From Halomarina salina (GTDB taxonomy: Archaea > Halobacteriota > Halobacteria > Halobacteriales > Haloarculaceae), in the NCBI RefSeq assembly GCF_023074835.1, contig NZ_JALLGW010000001.1, positions 992,001 to 1,056,000 of the forward strand: a stretch of DNA of 64,000 nucleotides, in the 5' to 3' direction. Each line of letters starts with the position of its first letter. Within the stretch, counting starts at the first letter, position 1. The position numbers and the translations under genes are program-made. The notes under the pieces were generated by a model. The model was not told the DNA's origin. It did not search any database and worked only from the letters and a program-made list of their open reading frames with translations. Shown here in pieces: positions 21,944 through 33,630 of this stretch.

Positions 21944-22642
21944 ATGCACGAGCGAGCGTACGGCCTCGACGACGTGAGCGTCGTGATGGGGGCGTACAAC
22001 GAAGTCGACGCCATCGGGCCGGTGCTCGACGACATCGAGGCGGCGACCGACGGACGGGCGGAGGCGGTCGTCGTCGACAGCTCCGACGACGGGACCGCCG
22101 CGGTGGCCCGCGACCACGGGGCGACCGTCGTGGACCAGCCACCGAGGGGCTACGGAGTCGCCGTGAGCCGGGCGTTGCGGGAGGCGACCACCCCGGTTCG
22201 GGTGACGACCGACTGCGACGGGACCTACCCGATGGACCGCATCCCCGACTTCCTCGACCTGGTGAACGAGGGGTACGACGTCGTGAGCGGCGACCGACTG
22301 TACCACGGTGCGCGGACGATGCCGCGCGTCAACCGGGCGGGGAACCACGCGTTCGCGGCGCTGGCTAGCCTCCTCTCGGGGAGGCGACTGCACGACGTGA
22401 CGACCGGGATGCGCGCGTACCACGAGTCGGTCGTCGAGTCCATCGAGTGGACGGAGAACACGGGCCTCTCCGCCGAACTGTTGATCCGCCCGGTGATGCG
22501 GGGCTACCGCGTCCGGGAGGAACCCATCGACTACGACGAACGCATCGGCGAGACGAAACTCGACCCGTTCGCCGGCGGCAGGGCCATCGGCGGGTCGATT
22601 CTGACCGTCTGCGCCGAGGAGCGACGCCGACGACGGTCCTGA
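21944..22642 (+). CDS. family 2 glycosyltransferase (dolichyl-phosphate sugar synthase-like)
   Basis: A 232-residue GT-A glycosyltransferase. VSVVMGAYNEVDAI is the nucleotide-sugar entry strand, EAVVVDSSDDGT carries the first acidic pair, and VRVTTDCDGTYPMD has the metal-binding D-x-D. There are no C-terminal membrane helices. It resembles AglJ/DPM1-type enzymes that charge dolichyl phosphate with a sugar on the cytoplasmic membrane face. A GCTTAAC element about 30 bases before the ATG suggests a leaderless promoter. It converges on the GT39-type gene (25-base gap), so the two may be partners: one makes the lipid-linked sugar, the other uses it outside. Confidence 0.87.
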   Translation: MHERAYGLDDVSVVMGAYNEVDAIGPVLDDIEAATDGRAEAVVVDSSDDGTAAVARDHGATVVDQPPRGYGVAVSRALREATTPVRVTTDCDGTYPMDRIPDFLDLVNEGYDVVSGDRLYHGARTMPRVNRAGNHAFAALASLLSGRRLHDVTTGMRAYHESVVESIEWTENTGLSAELLIRPVMRGYRVREEPIDYDERIGETKLDPFAGGRAIGGSILTVCAEERRRRRS

Positions 22643-22666: not shown

Positions 22667-24856
22667 CTATCGCCGGGCGCTGCCGTCCGAGACGGTCGCG
22701 TTCGTCCCCCGGTCGGGCCCCGAGTCGTCGAGGGCGACCGGCACGCAGCGGTCGGGGACGGGACAGCGTTCGGCCGTCGGCGACAGCGCCCGGTGCGTCC
22801 CACCGCGCGACTCGACGGGGAACGTCACCTCGTAGCTGTAGCCGCCGGTCGGCCCGGTGTCGACGAACACCTCGACGTGGACCTCGTCGGACTCGTCGAG
22901 TGCGACGCTCCCGTCTGACCCGGTCGGTTCGAGCGTCGGTCCGGTGACGCTCACGGTTCCGTCCTCCACGACCACCGACAGCGAGAGCGACCCGCCCGCG
23001 TCGGTTCCCACGAGGTACGCGGAGCCGCGGTCGGTCGCGAGGCGAACCGTCGTCCCCGTCACGGTCGCCGGTCGCGCGAGCGTGGCGTTCACCGCGAGTC
23101 GCTCGCCCGCGAGTCGGTCGACCGGGACGAGCGTCGCCCGGACAGTCGAGTCGTCGGTGGGGACCCACGTCCCGGTGTAGACGTAGCGGTAGAGGTCGCG
23201 GTCCCCGAACCGTGACGCGACATCGAGTTCGCGGGTGTCGCCGAGAGCGTAGACCGCTCTCCCGTCGTAGGCGGCGTCGTTCCGGAGCGCCTGGAACGGG
23301 TGGTTCAGCCACGGTCCGTACGTCGCCGGGAGGAAGACGACCGACTCCTCGGGCGGGCCGTCGTCGAAGGGTGCGTACCCGGCGCTGTACTCCTCGGTCA
23401 CCCCGGCGTTCGGGGCGACGCGTGCACCGACGACGGCCGCACCGACGCCGCTCGCGACCACCGCACCGACGACGAGTATCGCCACGACGACCTGCGGCGC
23501 TCGGTCGGCACCGACGCCGTCCCGGCGGGCGAGCCACGCCGGCACCGTCTCTCGTAGCCACTCGACCGCGGCGACGACGGCGACGGCGGCGAACACCGCC
23601 GTCGGAACGACGAGGTCGTAGTGGTAGTACGGGCCGAGGTAGTGGACGAGGCCGTCGGTGTCGGACGCCAGCGAGCCGAGGACGTTGTAGTTCCCCCAGA
23701 ACGCGACGTTCCCGCCCGCCACGGTGAGGTACGTCGCGGCGAGGAGCGCGGGGCGGACGCGGTCGCCCCCTCCCTCGACGCCACTCGACCCGTGCACACC
23801 GACGACGAAGACGAGTAGCAGGCCGACCGCCGCTGTGACGGTCCCGAGCGGTCCGGCGACGACCCACTCGGCGAACAGGTCGCGGAGGACGAGCGCGTTC
23901 GCGCGGAGCGCGAGTTCGGGTGTGTAGTCGACGGCGTGGCCGAGCAGCGCGTGTCGCCCGAAGCCGACGCCGTCGGTCGGCGCGAACGCCAGGTAGGGGA
24001 ACACGAACGGGTCGCCGGTCACGACGGCGTTGTAGCCGAGGGCGACGAGCACCCCTACGGACCCTATCGTCGCGGTGACGATGCGACGGACGAGGAGTCC
24101 GCGAGTCTCGCTCTGTGACGTATCGGTCTGCACCCGCCACACGCGCGAGCGGACGGCGGTGGCGAGCGCGTGGCCGACGAACGGGAGGGCGAACAGCACG
24201 GCGGTGTAGGGTCTGGCGAAGAACGCTACGCCGACGGCGAGGCCCGCCAGCGCCGCGTCCCGGACGCTCTCGCGGCGCTCGCCTCGGAGGTACCAGACGG
24301 CGAAGGCGACGTTCAGCGTCGTCGTCAGCGCGTACGGGAGGAACAGGCCCGCGTGGACGACGAACAGCGGCGTCCCGAGCAGGAGGACGCCCGCGAGGAC
24401 GCCGACCCGCGTGTCGAACAGCTCTCGGCCGAGGGCGACGACGCCCGCGACGAGCGAGGCCGAGATGGCCGCGGTCGCCAGCGAGTACCCGCCGAGCAGT
24501 CGGCCGAGCGCGAAGACGGCCGCCGGGACGGGTGCGTACTTCGAGTAGAGGCCCTCTGCCCCGTCGACGAAGAACCAGGGTCGGAACGACTCCTCGACGG
24601 GTGGTCGGAGGAACAGTCGGCCGTGGAGCAGCAGGTCCGCCTGCTGGAGGTAGACGCCCTCGTCGTGGTTCACCGAGAGGTAGGGGAACAGTGTCGACGC
24701 GACGAACAGCGACAGGATAGCGCCGACGGCGGCCAGGACGACCGACGCGAGGTGGCCGCGGTCGAGGTGGTCGAGCGACGACCGGAACGCCTCTGTGGAG
24801 AGCCCACGGGAGCGGTAGCCATCGTCGCCGTCGTCGTCGGGCGACCGACCCGACAT
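22667..24856 (-). CDS. GT39-type polytopic glycosyltransferase (dolichyl-phosphate-sugar:protein/glycan transferase-like)
   Basis: A 729-residue membrane protein. It has about ten to twelve hydrophobic segments from residue 37 to about 470, then an extracellular beta-rich domain of about 240 residues. The first outer loop carries SVNHDEGVYLQQADLLLHG, with Asp 65-Glu 66 in the acidic motif of GT-C/ArnT/PMT-like enzymes. They take sugar from a polyprenyl/dolichyl phosphate. Its ATG directly follows the stop of the ferric transporter ATPase gene (24856/24857), so it is the last gene of the operator-controlled iron operon. That context is unexpected for a glycosyltransferase. The acceptor is unknown. 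Confidence 0.82.
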   Translation of the reverse strand: MSGRSPDDDGDDGYRSRGLSTEAFRSSLDHLDRGHLASVVLAAVGAILSLFVASTLFPYLSVNHDEGVYLQQADLLLHGRLFLRPPVEESFRPWFFVDGAEGLYSKYAPVPAAVFALGRLLGGYSLATAAISASLVAGVVALGRELFDTRVGVLAGVLLLGTPLFVVHAGLFLPYALTTTLNVAFAVWYLRGERRESVRDAALAGLAVGVAFFARPYTAVLFALPFVGHALATAVRSRVWRVQTDTSQSETRGLLVRRIVTATIGSVGVLVALGYNAVVTGDPFVFPYLAFAPTDGVGFGRHALLGHAVDYTPELALRANALVLRDLFAEWVVAGPLGTVTAAVGLLLVFVVGVHGSSGVEGGGDRVRPALLAATYLTVAGGNVAFWGNYNVLGSLASDTDGLVHYLGPYYHYDLVVPTAVFAAVAVVAAVEWLRETVPAWLARRDGVGADRAPQVVVAILVVGAVVASGVGAAVVGARVAPNAGVTEEYSAGYAPFDDGPPEESVVFLPATYGPWLNHPFQALRNDAAYDGRAVYALGDTRELDVASRFGDRDLYRYVYTGTWVPTDDSTVRATLVPVDRLAGERLAVNATLARPATVTGTTVRLATDRGSAYLVGTDAGGSLSLSVVVEDGTVSVTGPTLEPTGSDGSVALDESDEVHVEVFVDTGPTGGYSYEVTFPVESRGGTHRALSPTAERCPVPDRCVPVALDDSGPDRGTNATVSDGSARR

Positions 24857-26008
24857 CTATCGGGCCGGGTACCAGGCGAGTTCGTGGTCGGCGACGAGCG
24901 TCACCGTCACCGGGTCGCCCACCTCGAACTCCTCGGTGTGGTTGTGGAGACAGCGCACGACGGTGCCGTCGTCGAGTTCGACGTGGTAGACGAACGACGG
25001 GCCGGTGTACTGTCGGCGGACGACGGTCCCGTCGGCGTCGCCGGCCGCGGCCGGTTCGGCCCGGAGGTCGTCGGGGCGGACGAGGACGTCGACCCGACTC
25101 CCCGCGTAGCCGTCGCCGAGCCCCGCCAGCAGGTCCCGGTCGTAGGAGCCGACGCTCGTCTCGACGGCGTCCGCCGTCACCTCGGCGGGGAGGAAACTGG
25201 CCTGCCCGAGGAACGAGGCGACGAACCGCGACGTCGGGTTCTCGAACACCTCCTCGGGTGGACCGACCTGTTCGAGACGGCCGTCGTTGACGACGGCGAT
25301 GCGGTCGGAGATGGAGAGCGCCTCCTCCTGGTCGTGGGTGACGGAGACGGCGGTGACGTTCGCCTCGTCGAGGATGCGCTTGACCTCCTCGCGCATCCTG
25401 ACCCGGAGGCGCACGTCGAGGTTCGAGAACGGCTCGTCCAGCAGGAGGACGTCCGGTTCGGGCGCGAGCGACCGGGCGAGCGCCACGCGCTGGCGCTGGC
25501 CGCCCGAGAGGTCCTCGGGCGAGCGGTCGCCGTACTCCGACAGGCCGACGAGGTCGAGCAGGTCGTCGACGCGTGCTTCAGCCTCCGGCGAGTCCGGGTC
25601 CTCGAGGCCGAACGCGACGTTCTCGGCGACGGTCAGGTGGGGGAACAGCGCGAACTCCTGGAACACCAGTCCCACGTCTCGCTCCTCCGGGGGCGTCTGC
25701 GGGCCGTCGCCGGCGACCACCGTGCCGCCGACCTCGATGGTGCCCTCGGTGACCGATTCGAGGCCCGCTATCATCCGGAGGGTCGTCGTCTTCCCGCAGC
25801 CAGAGGGGCCGAGGAGCGTGACGAGCTCCCCCTCGTGGACGAGCAGGTCGAGGTCGGAGACGGCGGTCTCCGAGCCGTAGCGTTTACCGACGCCGGACAG
25901 TTCCAGCACCGGGTCGGCGGTCGGCGACCGGTCAGTCGGGGATGCACGACGCCCTGCCACCGCGTCGGCGGGTGCTGCGTCCGTCGTCGAGGTCGGGTTC
26001 TCATGCAT
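24857..26008 (-). CDS. ferric-type ABC transporter ATP-binding protein
   Basis: A 383-residue ATPase of the FbpC/PotA class. An acidic, Ser/Thr-rich extension of about 30 residues precedes Walker A (GPSGCGKTT, about 67-75), the Q-loop (VFQEFALFPHLT), signature LSGGQRQRVALARSL, Walker B LLLDEPFSNLD and the H-loop VTHDQEEA. A TOBE_2-type regulatory domain occupies about 290-383. It powers uptake through the permease at 26001-27644, whose end it overlaps by eight bases. Together with the FbpA-like lipoprotein this is most likely a ferric importer. Confidence 0.92.
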   Translation of the reverse strand: MHENPTSTTDAAPADAVAGRRASPTDRSPTADPVLELSGVGKRYGSETAVSDLDLLVHEGELVTLLGPSGCGKTTTLRMIAGLESVTEGTIEVGGTVVAGDGPQTPPEERDVGLVFQEFALFPHLTVAENVAFGLEDPDSPEAEARVDDLLDLVGLSEYGDRSPEDLSGGQRQRVALARSLAPEPDVLLLDEPFSNLDVRLRVRMREEVKRILDEANVTAVSVTHDQEEALSISDRIAVVNDGRLEQVGPPEEVFENPTSRFVASFLGQASFLPAEVTADAVETSVGSYDRDLLAGLGDGYAGSRVDVLVRPDDLRAEPAAAGDADGTVVRRQYTGPSFVYHVELDDGTVVRCLHNHTEEFEVGDPVTVTLVADHELAWYPAR

Positions 26009-27644
26009 CGTCGCTCCCCCCGCCGAGCAGCGGAATCATCGAGAGGCCGGAGACGGCGATCAACACGAGTGCCGGTAGCGCCGCACGTCCGTAGTAGCCA
26101 GCCTCCTGAACACGCCAGATGTAGGTCACTATCGTTGTAAACCCTGTCGGATGGAGGATGAGCGTGGTGTCGAGTTCCTTCATCGTCGTAAGGAAGACGA
26201 GCGCCGCCCCGGCGAGCAACCCCGGCGAGATGAGCGGGAGCGTCACCCTGCGGAACGCGCTCCGCGGCGACGCGCCGAGCAACCGGGCCGCGCCGACCAG
26301 TTCCCGGTCGACGCCGAGCACCGACGAGCGCGTCGTGCCGACCGCCTGCGGCAGGAACCGGACGACGTAGGCGAACACGAGCAGCGGCAGGGACTGGTAG
26401 AGCAGCTGCGCCGCCCCCGGCCCCACGCTGTCGCGGAGCCACTGGCTGGAGAAGAAGACGAGCGAGAGGCCGAGGACGACCCCCGGCATCGCGTACCCGA
26501 GGTACGTCGCCCGGTCGACGACCCGCGAGAGGAACGAGTTCGACTGCCCGGCGTAGTACGCCACCGGGAGCGCGAACAGCACCGTCACGAGCGCGGCGAC
26601 GGCCGCGACGTACACCGAGTTCGTCGCGAACGCGGTGCGGAACGCGAGGCCACCGCCGCTGTACCCCGGCGACGACCGGACGAACCACATCGCGAGGATG
26701 CCGACGGGCAGGACGAGCGTGAACAGGCTCACCAGCGCGGGGAGGAGCGCGGCGACCCAGCGCAGGCGACCGAGCGAGAGGACGGGCCGGGTCGACGACG
26801 TCGTCCCGTACCCCCCGGTAGGGCTGCCGCTGACCCGCGCTTCGAGTGCGAGAATCACCGCCGTCACCGCGAGCAGCTGCATCGACAACAACGTCGCGTT
26901 CGCCCGTCCCGCGCCGAAGCTGTTCAGTTCGACGTAGATGACGCGCGTGAACACGTCGTAGCGCATGATGGAGGGCGTCCCGAAGTCCGAGAGCGTGTAG
27001 AGCGCGACGAGCAGTGCCCCGGCGGTGACCCCCGGCGCTATCTGGGGGAGGATGACGCGACGGAACGTACTCCGGTAGCCGTGGTTCAGCGTCCGGGCCG
27101 CCTCTATCTGGGTCGTGTCGAACGAGAGCAGCGAGGCCCGCGTCGTGAGGAAGACGTAGGGGTAGGTGAACAGCGTCAACACGAGCGCGGTCCCGCCCAG
27201 TCCGTACACCGTCGGCAGGCCGACGCCGAGCGGTTCGAGCACGTCGGCGAGCGCCCCGCTCGGGCCGAACGTCGAGACGTAGGCGAACGCGCCGATGTAG
27301 CTCGGGACGACCAGCGGGAGCGCCGCGAGGACCGTCCAGAGCCGTCGGAACGGCAGGTCGGTCTGGACCGTCAGGACGGCGAGCGGGACGCCGAGGACGA
27401 TGGACGCTGCCGTGACGACGAGGACGAGGGCGAGGCTGTTGACGAGGACGCTGGTCGCCGTGTGCGACGTGAGCAGCGTGAGGGCGGCGTCGGCGTCCAT
27501 CGTCGACACGCTGAGGAGCAACCAGGCGAGCGGGGACACCACCGCCGCGGCGACGGCCGCGGCGACGAGGGCGACGGCCAGTCCCGGCCCCTCGTCGTCG
27601 CCGAGGCGTCGCCGGAGTCGCTCGACCTGTCCACTCGAGGCCAT
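26001..27644 (-). CDS. ferric-type ABC transporter permease (FbpB-like, fused two-domain)
   Basis: A 547-residue permease built of two homologous halves of about six membrane helices each, as in FbpB/SfuB proteins. Each half has an EAA-type cytoplasmic loop: EAARTLNHGYRSTFRRVILP in the first and GAARLLGASPRSAFRRVTLP in the second. Both dock on the ATPase. Being fused, one copy makes the whole channel. It begins 18 bases after the substrate-binding protein stop and its end overlaps the ATPase start. Confidence 0.92.
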   Translation of the reverse strand: MASSGQVERLRRRLGDDEGPGLAVALVAAAVAAAVVSPLAWLLLSVSTMDADAALTLLTSHTATSVLVNSLALVLVVTAASIVLGVPLAVLTVQTDLPFRRLWTVLAALPLVVPSYIGAFAYVSTFGPSGALADVLEPLGVGLPTVYGLGGTALVLTLFTYPYVFLTTRASLLSFDTTQIEAARTLNHGYRSTFRRVILPQIAPGVTAGALLVALYTLSDFGTPSIMRYDVFTRVIYVELNSFGAGRANATLLSMQLLAVTAVILALEARVSGSPTGGYGTTSSTRPVLSLGRLRWVAALLPALVSLFTLVLPVGILAMWFVRSSPGYSGGGLAFRTAFATNSVYVAAVAALVTVLFALPVAYYAGQSNSFLSRVVDRATYLGYAMPGVVLGLSLVFFSSQWLRDSVGPGAAQLLYQSLPLLVFAYVVRFLPQAVGTTRSSVLGVDRELVGAARLLGASPRSAFRRVTLPLISPGLLAGAALVFLTTMKELDTTLILHPTGFTTIVTYIWRVQEAGYYGRAALPALVLIAVSGLSMIPLLGGGSDDA

Positions 27645-27662: not shown

Positions 27663-28892
27663 TCAGAGGACCCCGACGTCTCGGAGCAGGTCGAGCGTCG
27701 GCTGGATGTTCGACAGTTTGCTCAGGTCGACGTCGGGCGGGTTCAGTTCGTCGATGGTCGGGAGGCCGCCGACCGGCGGAATCTCAGACACCATCGGGTA
27801 GGCGTACGTGCGGGTCGCGAAGAACTCCTGGGCCTCCGCCGACAGCAGGTGACGGAGGAACGTGAACGCGAGCTCCTGGTTGTCGCTCGCCGAGAGGACC
27901 TCCGCGCCGGCCGCGTTGATGAGTGCGCCCGCGTCGCCGCTGGTGAACGCCAGTTCGAGCGGGGCGTTCGGTCGCGACTCGCGGACCCGGAGGGCGTAGT
28001 AGTGGTTGGCGAACCCGGCGGCGAGTTCGCCGTCGGCGACGGCGTTCGAGACGAGGAACTCGTTGTTGTACTCGGTGACGCCCGTGTCGAGCATCCCCTG
28101 GAGCCACGTCTTCGTCGTCTCCTCGCCCTCGATGAGTCGCATCGCGGTGACGAACGCCTGGAACGCGCCGTACGTCGGTGCCCAGCCGACCGCTCCCGAC
28201 AGCGCCTCCGTCTCGGGGAACTGCATCACGCTGTCGGGGACGTCCTCGGCCGACAGCGCCTCGGTGTTGAACGGGACGGCGCGGGCGCGTCCCGCGGTGC
28301 CGACCCACTCGTCGCCCGGGTGGAACTGCTCGGGGACCGGCTTCACGACCTCGGAAGGGAGTTTCGCGGTCAGGCCCTCGTTTGCGACGACGGCGAGCGA
28401 CCCGGCGTCGACGGACCAGAACACGTCGGCGGGCGTCGCCGACCCCTCGTTGATGAGGGTGTTCGCCGCGTCGGCCGTCCCCGAGGCGCGTTCCCTGGCC
28501 TCGAACTCCGGATAGATGTCCTCGAACGTCGCGAGCAGGTCGCGGTAGAGGCCGCCCTCTCCGCCACCGAGGTAGATGGTCAACTCGCCGCTGAGGTCCG
28601 GGAGGTCCTCGATGGACGTCCCGCCGACGTCGCCGCGACCCTCCGCGAGCGCCCCGGAGCCACGGAACTCGCCGAAACTCGGGTCGGCGGTGCCGTTCCC
28701 GCTCCCGTTCCCGCTGTCGTTCCCCGTCTCGTCGCCACCGCCGAAGAGGCCCGTACAGCCGGCGAGGCCGGCCAGACCGGTCGCACCGAGTCCGGCGAGG
28801 ACGCTCCGTCGCCGGTAGGTGCGACGGGTGGTGTGACCGCTCGTGCGAGGACTGTCGGTGTCTCGGCGGTCGTCGGTCGGTCGGTCAGTCAT
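27663..28892 (-). CDS. ferric-binding lipoprotein of ABC transporter (FbpA-like), Tat-exported
   Basis: A 409-residue extracellular solute-binding protein. RRRSVLAGLGATGLAGLAGC is a twin-arginine signal ending in a lipobox (Cys 46), followed by an acidic Gly/Asn tether. The mature protein has WVGTAGRARAVPFNTEAL, GWAPTYGAFQAFVTAMR and FANHYYALR. The last contains adjacent Tyr 298-Tyr 299 at the place of the iron-coordinating Tyr pair of FbpA proteins. It would capture Fe3+ outside and hand it to the permease. ATG at 28892 overlaps the end of the upstream gene by eight bases. Confidence 0.9.
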   Translation of the reverse strand: MTDRPTDDRRDTDSPRTSGHTTRRTYRRRSVLAGLGATGLAGLAGCTGLFGGGDETGNDSGNGSGNGTADPSFGEFRGSGALAEGRGDVGGTSIEDLPDLSGELTIYLGGGEGGLYRDLLATFEDIYPEFEARERASGTADAANTLINEGSATPADVFWSVDAGSLAVVANEGLTAKLPSEVVKPVPEQFHPGDEWVGTAGRARAVPFNTEALSAEDVPDSVMQFPETEALSGAVGWAPTYGAFQAFVTAMRLIEGEETTKTWLQGMLDTGVTEYNNEFLVSNAVADGELAAGFANHYYALRVRESRPNAPLELAFTSGDAGALINAAGAEVLSASDNQELAFTFLRHLLSAEAQEFFATRTYAYPMVSEIPPVGGLPTIDELNPPDVDLSKLSNIQPTLDLLRDVGVL

Positions 28893-30060
28893 CGGCGACC
28901 ACCACCGTCGACTCGGCGGCGGCGTCACAACGGGCCGACAGCGTCGCCAGACAGTCCAGCCAGTCGCGCATGTACTCGCCGCAGTGGTTCAGGAACGCGC
29001 CGTTCGTCCACTCCTCGAAGTCGCCCTCGGCGAGCGCGTCGGCCATCGCCGCGAACGCCTCCTCGAAGCTCTCGGCGTCCTCGCCGACGTCGTCGACGAC
29101 CTCCCAGACGTGCTCGTTGAGTTCGAGGCCCGCCACCTCGTTCGCCAGGTCGTCGAACGTCGAACGCGGGGCCTTGTTGTGCTCGCAGAGCGGGCCGCCG
29201 TTGTACACCTGCTTGTCGAGGACGTCCGCGGCGCGCTTGAGGAACAGCCCCGACCAGATGTCGTCGAACCGGCCGACGTCCCACTCGTTGTCGTCCATCG
29301 GAAGCTGGTAGAACGCGGGGACGACCTCCCGGCGGAACGCGAGGTTCATCGAGCAGACGGTGAGGTACTGGCCCTCGCTCGCGACGAAGTCGCGCTCGAA
29401 GTCGTCGGCGGTGGTGCGCGTCTCGGCCTGGCCCTGCAGGTCGCCGTCCATGAGGATGCGGACCGCGTCGAGGTCGGGGACGTTCGTCCAGAGGCCCTGC
29501 GAGGCGACGACGCTCTCGACGTGTTCGACGTCCGTCTCGACCGTCTCGTCCATCGCCGCGTACGGGTAGCCGCGGGGGTAGAGGTCGGTGTCGCTCTGGT
29601 AGAGGACGTTCACCCACGACTCGTCCGAGCGGACCGACTTTACCCGACCCTCGAACGCGAGGTTCTCCATGTGGGTGCCGAAGAAGTCCGCGTCGGGGTG
29701 GGGGAGGGTGTCGTCGTCGAGGAACACGCCGTACTCGAAGCGTTCGTGCGCCCAGAGGTACAGCAGGCCGAACGAGGTCTGGGCGTGACTCGCCGCGGGA
29801 ATCAGGTGGTCGAACTCGGCCACGTCGTTGGCCGCGAACCACGCCTCGCGGTCGCTCCCGTCGAACACCGCCCCGTCGACGCCCTCCTCGTCGAGCATCG
29901 TCCGCATCGCCTCGACGTCGCAGAACTCCTCGGTGACCAGCACGAAGAACAGTCGGTCGGCGTCGAAGCCGTGCTCTCGGGCGTTCTCGACGTACGCTCG
30001 AACGCACTCGTGCTCTCGAATCGTCGGAACGACGACACAGGTGTCCTGCTCCGTACTCAT
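28885..30060 (-). CDS. reversibly glycosylated polypeptide family protein (GT75-like; alpha-1,4-glucan-protein synthase-like)
   Basis: A 391-residue cytoplasmic protein resembling the reversibly-glycosylated-polypeptide/UDP-arabinopyranose mutase family. CVVVPTIREHECV is the N-terminal strand, GVFLDDDTLPHPD is a metal/nucleotide-binding Asp triad (115-117), RGYPYAA follows, and DDIWSGLFLKRAAD lies in the C-terminal half. Plant members self-glycosylate from UDP-sugars or interconvert sugar ring forms; archaeal roles are unclear. It is the first gene of the iron operon, 15 bases downstream of a perfect DtxR-like palindrome, and overlaps the FbpA-like gene by eight bases. It may supply a sugar nucleotide for the GT39 enzyme at the operon's end. 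That is inference. Confidence 0.78.
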   Translation of the reverse strand: MSTEQDTCVVVPTIREHECVRAYVENAREHGFDADRLFFVLVTEEFCDVEAMRTMLDEEGVDGAVFDGSDREAWFAANDVAEFDHLIPAASHAQTSFGLLYLWAHERFEYGVFLDDDTLPHPDADFFGTHMENLAFEGRVKSVRSDESWVNVLYQSDTDLYPRGYPYAAMDETVETDVEHVESVVASQGLWTNVPDLDAVRILMDGDLQGQAETRTTADDFERDFVASEGQYLTVCSMNLAFRREVVPAFYQLPMDDNEWDVGRFDDIWSGLFLKRAADVLDKQVYNGGPLCEHNKAPRSTFDDLANEVAGLELNEHVWEVVDDVGEDAESFEEAFAAMADALAEGDFEEWTNGAFLNHCGEYMRDWLDCLATLSARCDAAAESTVVVADD

Positions 30061-30075
30061 TGCCCCGGCCAACGA

Positions 30076-30089
30076 TTAGGCTCGCCTAA
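30076..30089. promoter_or_regulatory. DtxR-like iron operator (box 1)
   Basis: TTAGGCTCGCCTAA, a perfect 6-2-6 palindrome, lies 15 bases upstream of the first gene of the ferric-transport operon. It has the TTAGG...CCTAA shape of DtxR-family boxes. DtxR-type iron regulators (SirR, Idr) are known in haloarchaea. At this distance it would cover the core promoter. Confidence 0.75.
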
Positions 30090-30102
30090 ACAGTGTCGAT
30101 TG

Positions 30103-30116
30103 TTAGGCGGGCCAAA
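30103..30116. promoter_or_regulatory. DtxR-like iron operator (box 2)
   Basis: TTAGGCGGGCCAAA has the same 6-2-6 design with five of six arm bases paired. Its centre lies 27 bases from box 1. The pair suggests two repressor dimers, and it could also influence the neighbouring GMC gene end region. Confidence 0.6.
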
Positions 30117-30208: not shown

Positions 30209-31816
30209 TCAGAGCCGTTCGGCGATGTGTCCGGCCGCCTTCAGCGAGAGAGCGGCGATGGTGAGCGTGGGGTTCATCGCCCCGCCCGTGACGAAGACGG
30301 AACTCCCGGCGAGCGTGAGGTTTGCCAGGTCGTGACTGCGCAGGCGGCGGTCGACGACGCTCTCGGCCGGGTCGGTCCCCATCCGCGTCGTGCCCATGTG
30401 GTGGTACGCCGGGCCGGTGTTCTCGGGGCCGACCGTCCAGGTGACGTCCGCACCGAGTTCGGTCAGGATCTCGCGTTGCACCTCGTTCGCTCGCTCGATG
30501 GTGCGTCGCGTCCGGTCGTCGACGCGCCACACCACGTCCGGGACGGGGTTCCCGTGGTCGTCCGTGCGCGAGCGGTCCAGTCGAATCCGGTTCTCGGCGC
30601 TCGGGAGCTGCTCGACCAGCGCACCCATCGCGACGTGGGTGCCGTACGCCTCCCGTATCTCCTCCAGCAACGCGTCGCCGAACGTGTCCGCTTCGAGGGC
30701 GACGTCCGTGGGTGCCGGGCCGGCGTAGTTGAGGAACTCCAGTTTGATGGCGGTCCGCGAGTCGTCCGGCCGGTCGTAGAACTGGTGGCTCTCGGTGGTG
30801 TTGAACCCGACGTGCTTCTGCCGGGTCGGTTCGTCGAGCGTCCCGCCGACGCCCGCGAACAGGTGGTCCATGAAGTACCGACCCACCGCGCCCGAGGAGT
30901 TCGCCAGACCGTTCGGGTACCGCTCGCTCGCCGAGAGCAACAGGAGGCGGGGCGTCTCCACCCCGCCCGCGGCGACGACGAACTCGCGTGCCTCCTGTCG
31001 GTGTTCCTCGCCACCTGGCGTCGCGTAGACGGCGGCGGTCACCCGCTCGCCCGCCTCGTCGTGGTCGAGTCGCTGGACGGGGACGCGGTCCAGAACTCGG
31101 GCTCCGTTCGCTTCCGCGATATCGACGTGTCGCGTCGCGTCGTACTTCGCACCCGAGGGGCAGACGGGCTTACAGGTGCCGTACCCGACGCAGGCGCTCT
31201 GCCCGTCGACCGCCTCCGAGTTCCGCGCGTTCGGTACCGAGTGCGTCGCGACTCCCACCGATTCGCACGCCTCGGCGAACAGCGAGTCGCTGTACGACGG
31301 GGGGAACGCCGGGAGCGGATGTGGCTCCTCGCGTGGCGGTTCGAACGGGTTATCCGAGGCCCCCGAGACGTTCAACGCCGCTTCGGCGGCGGCGTAGAAC
31401 GGCCGCAGGTCCCCGTAGTCGATGGGCCAGTCGTCGCCCATGCCGACCGACGAGTCGAGTTCGAAGTCCTGCTCGTGCAGGCGCATCACCATCCCCTGCC
31501 AGTGGAGCGTGCTGCCGCCGACGCCCTTCACGCGCGACGCGTTCAGCGGGTAGTGTCGCTCGCCGGAGGCGCTGTAGGCGTCGCGCTCGCCACCCACGTC
31601 CCAGACCGGTTTCGCGCTCCCCGGGCGAAGGTGTCGTTCCATCCGCTCTGGACGCTCGCTCGGTTCGAACCGCGGGCCGGCGTCGAGGACGACCACCTCG
31701 TGACCCCGCTTCGACAGGTCGGCGGCGACGATGGCACCAGCCGGGCCGGCCCCGACGACGCAGACGTCCACTCCCGACGACGGCGTACGGTCGGTGGACT
31801 CTCCCGATGTGGTCAC
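30209..31816 (-). CDS. GMC family dehydrogenase catalytic subunit with putative [3Fe-4S] cysteines
   Basis: A 535-residue FAD enzyme. VCVVGAGPAGAIVAADLSKRG is the FAD motif (from residue 18) and GVGGSTLHWQGM the FAD-lid. YHHMGTTRMG has the catalytic His near 472 and AMNPTLT the Asn near 515. Cys 209, 215 and 219 (C-x5-C-x3-C in ACVGYGTCKPVCPSG) match three of the cysteines in bacterial FAD-glucose dehydrogenases with a [3Fe-4S] cluster. GTG at 31816 is preferred; an ATG at 31891 would overlap the upstream gene by 38 bases. It should be exported with the preceding Tat subunit and oxidise a sugar or alcohol at the outer membrane face. Confidence 0.88.
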   Translation of the reverse strand: MTTSGESTDRTPSSGVDVCVVGAGPAGAIVAADLSKRGHEVVVLDAGPRFEPSERPERMERHLRPGSAKPVWDVGGERDAYSASGERHYPLNASRVKGVGGSTLHWQGMVMRLHEQDFELDSSVGMGDDWPIDYGDLRPFYAAAEAALNVSGASDNPFEPPREEPHPLPAFPPSYSDSLFAEACESVGVATHSVPNARNSEAVDGQSACVGYGTCKPVCPSGAKYDATRHVDIAEANGARVLDRVPVQRLDHDEAGERVTAAVYATPGGEEHRQEAREFVVAAGGVETPRLLLLSASERYPNGLANSSGAVGRYFMDHLFAGVGGTLDEPTRQKHVGFNTTESHQFYDRPDDSRTAIKLEFLNYAGPAPTDVALEADTFGDALLEEIREAYGTHVAMGALVEQLPSAENRIRLDRSRTDDHGNPVPDVVWRVDDRTRRTIERANEVQREILTELGADVTWTVGPENTGPAYHHMGTTRMGTDPAESVVDRRLRSHDLANLTLAGSSVFVTGGAMNPTLTIAALSLKAAGHIAERL

Positions 31817-31853
31817 GAGTGCCTCCCTCTCGACTCCCCTCGTGAGCGACCGG

Positions 31854-32396
31854 TCATCGGTCGGGAGCCTCCCGATACGAGGTCGTCCCACCGGCGTACC
31901 CCGGCGGGTTCTCCAGCCCCGCCATCCCGGCTCCGGTGGGCGAACGGTAGAACGCGAACAGGAGTTCGTTCACGAGGTAGTAGCGGACGCGCTGTTCGGC
32001 GGCCCCATCGGGGTCGGCCTCGGCCTCGTCGACGCTCATGTAGTCGAGCGTCTCGCGGCGGTCGGCCGACGAGAGCGCCACGTACCGCTCGTCGTGGAAC
32101 GTCGCGGTGTACTCGTCGAGCGCGTCGACGGCCTCGGCGACGCCCGTCGCGTACGCGCCGTCCCCATCGACGCGGCCGCCGGTGTACGTCCGGACGAACG
32201 AGGCGACGCCGTCGACTGCCGACGGGTAGACCACCTCCGCAATCGCGACGAGGGTCGCCATCTCGTGGTCGCCGACCGGGTGGTCCTCGGTCCCCTCACT
32301 CCACACGTCCGACTCGGTGAGCGCCGAACACCCGGCTAACGCACCGCTCCCCCCCGCAGCGAGCGCGGCGAGCGCGTCCCGACGGGTCAACCGCAT
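31854..32396 (-). CDS. Tat lipoprotein small subunit of the Fe-S GMC dehydrogenase
   Basis: A 180-residue protein with twin arginines at the very start (RLTRRDALAALAAGG) and a lipobox (ALAGC). The body has EMATLVAIAEVVYPSAVDGV, which matches the start of the gluconate 2-dehydrogenase subunit 3/gamma-subunit family, and RVRYYLVNELLFAFYRSPTG at the end. It would escort the flavoprotein through Tat and anchor it. ATG at 32396 is preferred to the adjacent GTG at 32399. An operator-like box lies 11 bases upstream. It is transcribed first, with the catalytic subunit gene after it. Confidence 0.83.
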   Translation of the reverse strand: MRLTRRDALAALAAGGSGALAGCSALTESDVWSEGTEDHPVGDHEMATLVAIAEVVYPSAVDGVASFVRTYTGGRVDGDGAYATGVAEAVDALDEYTATFHDERYVALSSADRRETLDYMSVDEAEADPDGAAEQRVRYYLVNELLFAFYRSPTGAGMAGLENPPGYAGGTTSYREAPDR

Positions 32397-32407
32397 CACG
32401 CTGTGTT

Positions 32408-32421
32408 TTTGGCAGACCTAA
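32408..32421. promoter_or_regulatory. DtxR-like iron operator (box 3)
   Basis: TTTGGCAGACCTAA has the same 6-2-6 plan as boxes 1 and 2 (four of six arm bases paired) and sits 11 bases upstream of the GMC small-subunit gene. Its right half ACCTAA and left half TTTGGC both occur as half-site types in the other boxes. It is weaker than box 1. Confidence 0.5.
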
Positions 32422-32583: not shown

Positions 32584-33414
32584 TCAGTAGTCGATTCGAC
32601 TGAGCGTCTCGTCGAGCGCGTCGTGATACCGGCCACCGAAGAGGTGGACGTGAACGAGCAGGGGGTAGAGCCGGTAGACGAACCGACGGGACTCGAAGAA
32701 GCCAGCGACGATCTCCCGTCGCTCCCGATATCGGTCGAAGAACGCGTCGCCGAACGTCCCGGTCCAGTCGACGTACGCGAGTTCTACCTCGGGGTGGGCG
32801 TAGTAGATCGCCGGGTCGAGGAACGCCGTCACCGCCCCATCACGGGCGAGGACGTTCGTCGTCCAGACGTCGCCGTGGATCAGCGAAGGGCTCTTCGGCT
32901 CGGTCAGTAATTCGGTCAGGTCGTCGCACACGGCCTCGACTCGCGTCTCGGTGTCCGCCGAGAGGTCCGCCAGCGAGAGGAGATGTTCGAGCCTGTGCTC
33001 GCGGTAGAACTCGACCCAGCTGTCGGTCCACGGGTTGGGCTGGTGGACGGGGCCGGTGACCGTGTCGAAGTCGAGGCCGAACGCGGCGCTACCGTGCTCG
33101 TGGAGCGCTGCGAGGTGGTCGGCTGCATCCCGTGCGACGGCGGCGTCGTGGTCCGTCTCCCCCTCGATGAATTCGACGAGGAGCAGGTCCGGGTCCGCGT
33201 GGTACACCGTCGGAACGGGCAGGTCGCTGTACTCGGCGAGGTAGCGGAGCATCCGGCCCTCTGTATCGAGCGGCGTCTCGCCTGTTTTCGCGACGACTCG
33301 ACGGTCGTCGGCGAGCGTTGCACGTTGTACTGTTCCGATCTGTCCCCCCGTGAGTGCTCGGCACTCGACTGGCGGCGAACCGAGGGCAGACTCGATAGCG
33401 GCTTCGAGGTCCAC
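32584..33414 (-). CDS. fructosamine kinase family protein
   Basis: A 276-residue kinase-like protein. LTGGQIGTVQRATLADDRRVVAKTG is the N-lobe with the ATP Lys, HEHGSAAFGLDFDTVTGPVHQPN is typical of fructosamine-3-kinases, and SLIHGDVWTTNVL is the catalytic loop (HGDxWxxN). DPAIYYAHPEVELAYVDW contains the metal-binding Asp. Family members phosphorylate fructosamines on glycated proteins so that the adduct falls off, a form of protein repair. GTG at 33414 gives the length and N-terminus normal for the family; longer upstream starts have Arg-rich non-conserved sequence. Confidence 0.87.
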   Translation of the reverse strand: MDLEAAIESALGSPPVECRALTGGQIGTVQRATLADDRRVVAKTGETPLDTEGRMLRYLAEYSDLPVPTVYHADPDLLLVEFIEGETDHDAAVARDAADHLAALHEHGSAAFGLDFDTVTGPVHQPNPWTDSWVEFYREHRLEHLLSLADLSADTETRVEAVCDDLTELLTEPKSPSLIHGDVWTTNVLARDGAVTAFLDPAIYYAHPEVELAYVDWTGTFGDAFFDRYRERREIVAGFFESRRFVYRLYPLLVHVHLFGGRYHDALDETLSRIDY

Positions 33415-33630
33415 AGTGACCAGACCGGTACCAGTTCGAAGAGTGTTGGTGTCGTTCGCTCCTGATAACCCATCTCGCAGACCTCGGGGACCAGTCACGT
33501 CTGCTGCGTGTTCTTCGTCATCGTATCGAGAGCGAGGTCTGATGCCTCGGGCTACCCTTGGTGGTGCCGTGGCACGCCCAACCCCGAGTCGTAACGTATT
33601 CAAACAGCGACCGGATACTACGAACTGCGC

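Follow-up and report, generated by a model that had tools for sequence, protein, structure and literature searches.

Two short palindromes lying at positions 30076–30116 of the window (the whole stretch of haloarchaeal DNA analyzed here, 64 kb in length) are, according to the comparisons described below, operators of the DtxR type, and the control of the adjacent ferric transporter operon by a member of the DtxR family is strongly supported by the sequence data. Under iron-rich conditions, the operon is very probably silent, since twin operators are located on its promoter and the site is maintained in almost all of the related loci (79 out of 80). We consider it highly likely that the whole explanation is the following: DtxR-family single-dimer operators repress the Fbp operon, with the distal site strengthening the repression.

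For this operon, we infer that the sites are bound, that iron is the effector, that repression results, and that the distal site contributes to it, and we can depict the following scenario. The palindromes would represent single-dimer operators of a metal-activated repressor; with enough iron, metal-loaded dimers would bind them, and the proximal dimer would cover the TATA position, so that TBP and TFB could not assemble and the operon would be silent. The distal site would receive a second dimer, providing stronger repression in those loci having one promoter for the whole operon. At low iron, the repressor would be released and the ferric uptake system would be made.

Paired candidate operators upstream of a ferric transporter operon

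The two operators and the five genes lying downstream of them are the following:

30103–30116, no strand: distal operator TTAGGCGGGCCAAA, one mismatch, −56 to −43 from the ATG at 30060
30076–30089, no strand: proximal operator TTAGGCTCGCCTAA, perfect palindrome, −29 to −16 from the ATG at 30060
28885–30060, minus strand: first gene, RGP-like (reversibly glycosylated polypeptide family, distant), Pfam PF03214
27663–28892, minus strand: FbpA-type ferric-iron-binding protein, E 1.7e-57 to 7w3w, NHYY iron ligand motif
26001–27644, minus strand: fused ABC permease, FbpB-like, two BPD_transp_1 stretches
24857–26008, minus strand: ABC ATPase, FbpC-like, TOBE domain
22667–24856, minus strand: membrane GT-C glycosyltransferase, last gene of the run, PMT_2 and DUF7846

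Both 14-mers are found where the original prediction had placed them, 27 bp apart (start to start) and at 16 bp (proximal) and 43 bp (distal) from the first gene. Searching the 64-kb window for TTAGGCNNGCCTAA with at most one mismatch retrieved only these two sites, whereas 0.01 were expected from dinucleotide shuffles of the window; finding two of them in a stretch of this size greatly exceeds what chance would give. Moreover, the proximal operator corresponds exactly, and the distal one with one mismatch, to TTAGGNNNNCCTAA, the 14-bp sequence proposed as the single-dimer IdeR/DtxR consensus, for which the binding of one IdeR dimer has been shown by structural work (PMC8464063). When two mismatches to TTAGGNNNNCCTAA were allowed, four sites were found vs. 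2.8 expected, which is not above chance; thus, weak sites alone carry no weight.

The TTTAGG of the proximal operator is located at −30 from the ATG, where the TATA box is expected. Since the TATA box of the aconitase gene of the same genome (TTTATA) lies at −33 from its ATG, TTTAGG should occupy the TATA position, and the candidate operator, judged by its position relative to the ATG, overlaps the core promoter elements. A promoter-overlapping box is also found in IdeR-repressed genes (PMC10317159), and the actinobacterial IdeR/DtxR box shares with the operators described here the TTAGG half-sites and the 14-bp consensus as well. The classical actinobacterial box differs in that it spans 19 bp and binds two dimers, whereas here two 14-bp sites lie 27 bp apart on an archaeal promoter. 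This spacing corresponds to 2.6 helical turns; therefore, two dimers would not share one face of the DNA, which counts against the explanation favored here.

The five genes are tightly packed, their junctions measuring −8, +18, −8, and 0 bp; a search for operators between 22667 and 30060, allowing up to three mismatches, did not retrieve any internal site. From the gaps of no more than 18 bp and the lack of internal sites, we infer that the whole run is co-transcribed. The run from 30060 to 22667 had been pointed out in the original prediction, together with an FbpA-like lipoprotein with adjacent tyrosines, a fused permease, and an ATPase. The run is real, and the description of the transporter is right, since the lipoprotein matches ferric-binding proteins and its NHYY motif aligns with the NYY/NHYY iron-site tyrosine pair of the solved ones; the permease and the ATPase are recognized by their domain matches. 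What had been left unnamed is the nature of the first and the last genes, which encode a putative (RGP-like) glycosyltransferase and a membrane glycosyltransferase, respectively. As for the first one, considered as a possible member of the RGP/UDP-arabinopyranose mutase family, the PF03214 match covers most of the profile (E 1.1e-15), with no match to any NCBIfam model.

The ferric specificity of the transporter, predicted from the sequence, is backed by the similarity of its FbpA to the solved ferric-binding proteins. The system resembles the bacterial FbpABC, with a Tyr-Tyr ferric-binding protein, a fused permease, and an ATPase encoded side by side. Unlike it, the binding protein is a Tat lipoprotein on an archaeal cell (its leader carries a twin-arginine motif and a lipobox, RRRSVLAG...LAGC), and predicted glycosyltransferase genes flank the transporter genes in the operon.

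Conservation and distribution of the operator

The promoter region was compared in 80 loci from named haloarchaeal genomes, chosen by the presence of an orthologue of the first (RGP-like) gene. With no more than two mismatches allowed, the site was found just upstream of that orthologue in 79 of them, in the same promoter position. The only locus devoid of it (L092) also lacks FbpA, and another one (L085) keeps the operator although no FbpA is encoded beside RGP, a point against the favored explanation. In the alignment of the loci, hardly any variation is seen in the TTTAGG and CCTAAA arms, whereas the bases between them vary freely. A/C-rich bases located 5–13 bp upstream are conserved as well, which would fit a BRE next to a TATA box. 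Of the 80 loci, 78 have FbpA and 77 have the GT-C gene; since the loci were picked by their first gene, this co-occurrence is real, but the sample is not unbiased.

The number and position of the operators vary among the relatives. Like the window, 16 of the 80 relatives have a second site located 26–29 bp upstream (27 in most cases), although several of the distal copies match only weakly and carry as many as three mismatches. Furthermore, 58 of 78 loci (60 by a different count) have an operator in the RGP/FbpA intergenic gap. The internal site is missing from 13 of the 16 loci with an upstream pair vs. 7 of the 62 others (Fisher p 1.4e-7, shared ancestry ignored), which suggests that the two arrangements tend to exclude each other. 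In the window, the gap is closed by an 8-bp overlap of the two genes, and it is plausible that a double operator replaces two single ones. The haloarchaeal promoter layouts represent a natural series, in which the operator may be single, paired, or accompanied by another one inside the operon.

These data bear on the possibility that control by the operator is limited to the RGP-like gene, with the transporter genes using a promoter of their own. Separate promoters are common, since FbpA has its own operator in most of the relatives. In the window, the RGP/FbpA overlap and the absence of any site with up to three mismatches inside the run argue against this arrangement, which we regard as improbable here; control of the whole run from the paired operators remains the preferred reading.

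The haloarchaeal genome carrying the window (4.46 Mb) harbors further copies of the motif, which precedes four siderophore-type binding-protein genes and a FecCD permease. Three of the siderophore-binding-protein genes have operator pairs with a spacing of exactly 36 bp (L021 4614/4650, L023 4183/4219, and L024 4276/4312). The sequence TTATAA lies between the two sites of L021.

Probing this genome with the extended pattern TTTAGGCNNGCCTAAA, with one mismatch, retrieved nine sites vs. none with the reversed control. The same search in 59 genomes gave 444 sites vs. 11 (sums over the per-genome counts), a 40-fold excess. A loose search allowing two mismatches gave 27 real vs. 95 reversed sites and looked unfavorable, but the reversed pattern carries CG steps, which are expected to be favored in this GC-rich genome. 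Genes of the DtxR family were present in all of the 59 genomes searched. Three genomes of the same order (G035, G051, and G057) encode a DtxR-family protein but gave no extended-motif site when one mismatch was allowed; a different operator may be recognized by the regulator in these genomes.

Operators were also found upstream of the aconitase and 2Fe-2S ferredoxin genes (L020 3026–3039 and L018 3099–3112, respectively). They are located upstream of the TATA region, at −72 for aconitase (with the TATA box at −33) and at −61 for ferredoxin, and this position suggests activation by the metal-loaded regulator rather than blocking. These sites were considered and rejected as a proof of an iron regulon; since each of them occurs in only 4 of 30 loci, all of one genus, they represent lineage-specific support only.

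Alternatively, the palindrome might be recognized by a haloarchaeal regulator unrelated to the DtxR family. Given the exact correspondence to the DtxR/IdeR consensus, the iron genes lying behind the copies of the motif, and the occurrence of DtxR-family genes in every genome searched, we judge this very improbable. The DtxR-type nature of the operators, already proposed in the original prediction, is borne out by their conservation in the related loci and by the excess of sites across genomes, along with the consensus match and the iron genes behind the copies.

This kind of control is known in haloarchaea, where DtxR-family regulons before siderophore transporter genes have already been described. 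As cited in PMC11349517, a DtxR-family (ferR) regulon was predicted by Leyn and Rodionov (2015), in which, like here, the operator signal precedes iron/siderophore ABC transporter genes. The same source refers to three DtxR-family regulators, Idr, SirR, and TroR, in Haloferax volcanii (Martinez Pastor 2024) and to Idr1 and Idr2 in Halobacterium (Schmid 2011). As far as they are presented there, these systems share with the present one the control of iron homeostasis by haloarchaeal members of the DtxR family.

Candidate regulators and the effector metal

Only two proteins of the genome carrying the window pass PF02742, and they are likened to the Idr/SirR/TroR network and to Idr1/Idr2 by family membership:

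L026 1545–2234: 229-aa DtxR-family protein; PF01325, PF02742, and PF04023 (N-terminal wHTH, dimerisation, and FeoA/SH3-like domains)
L027 2031–2477: 148-aa DtxR-family protein; most metal ligands lost, no FeoA domain, cysteine-rich tail (CPDC...C)

The 229-aa protein is the only canonical DtxR-family protein of the genome and appears to be the better candidate for the regulator. When aligned to IdeR, it keeps the H79, E83, H98, E105, and H106 ligands and the P39-T40 pair of the recognition helix; aspartate is found in the positions of both M10 and C102, and the primary site is not of the iron type. The two aspartates represent what we take to be a manganese-type pattern. Since the ligands of this protein are of the manganese type, iron as the effector rests on the regulon and not on the protein. 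The 148-aa protein may sense something other than free metal. The gene following it looks ferritin-like by eye.

The operators might therefore belong to a manganese-sensing regulator of the MntR/SirR type, iron uptake being controlled via manganese or via both metals. Besides the primary-site residues, this is favored by the NCBIfam search, which ranked MntR first for the 229-aa protein, though below the cut-off. The genes linked to the motif, however, are those for ferric and siderophore transport, aconitase, and ferredoxin; no manganese transporter was found behind a good site, although a site with two mismatches is followed by a ZIP-family transporter. In addition, the metal chosen in vivo by DtxR-family members depends on the cell (PMC10317159). 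On balance, we consider a manganese-sensing regulator rather unlikely and retain iron as the probable effector.

Sugar-handling genes located behind the same operator

A third operator, missed in the original prediction, and a separate two-gene unit behind it were found in the window; they are given here together with two other genes:

32584–33603: fructosamine kinase gene, just upstream of the Gdh3 unit
32408–32421, no strand: third operator TTTGGCAGACCTAA (as read on the plus strand), differing from TTAGGCNNGCCTAA at two positions and lying a short distance before the Gdh3-GMC unit
31854–32396, minus strand: Gdh3, gluconate-2-dehydrogenase subunit 3-like, PF13618, Tat/lipobox leader
30209–31891, minus strand: GMC-family FAD oxidoreductase, PF05199/PF00732, overlapping the Gdh3 gene
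21944–22642, plus strand: dolichyl-phosphate hexose transferase, convergent, NF041391 above cut-off

An operator precedes the Gdh3 orthologues at 48 of 77 loci; in many of the remaining ones, the Fbp operon has the pair or Gdh3 at its 3' end. The dolichyl-phosphate hexose transferase gene has no operator of its own in the window, and 25 of its 53 relatives have one within 200 bp upstream, often at 80–200 bp. L048, L051, L087, and L100 are among the loci having an operator upstream of this GT2 gene. Since sites are carried by both Gdh3 and hexose transferase genes at these frequencies, sugar-handling genes appear to be repeatedly under the same operator, and it was unexpected that one switch should be shared by genes for sugar transfer and sugar oxidation.

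No operator was found for the fructosamine kinase gene, and the synteny search of the compared loci did not retrieve any relatives, i.e., no conserved linkage was found. In iron-starved Haloferax volcanii, the level of a ketosamine kinase protein (HVO_1017) increases 15.6-fold (PMC11349517).

One might speculate that a single iron switch couples ferric uptake to a conserved surface-sugar module whose product captures Fe(III) or aids its handover to FbpA; we propose this only tentatively and regard it as rather unlikely. If true, the module would consist of the RGP-like enzyme, the dolichyl-phosphate hexose transferase, the GT-C transferase, and the exported Gdh3-GMC oxidoreductase, and its role would be to make or oxidise a sugar acid or a glycan of the cell surface.

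The conserved position and the shared operators tie glycosyltransferase and sugar-oxidoreductase genes to iron uptake across the order. The site described here provides haloarchaea with a well-conserved and easily testable candidate iron operator. Moreover, surface glycans may be linked to archaeal ferric uptake, which might be directly tested in Haloferax volcanii, a species having an RGP-family gene.
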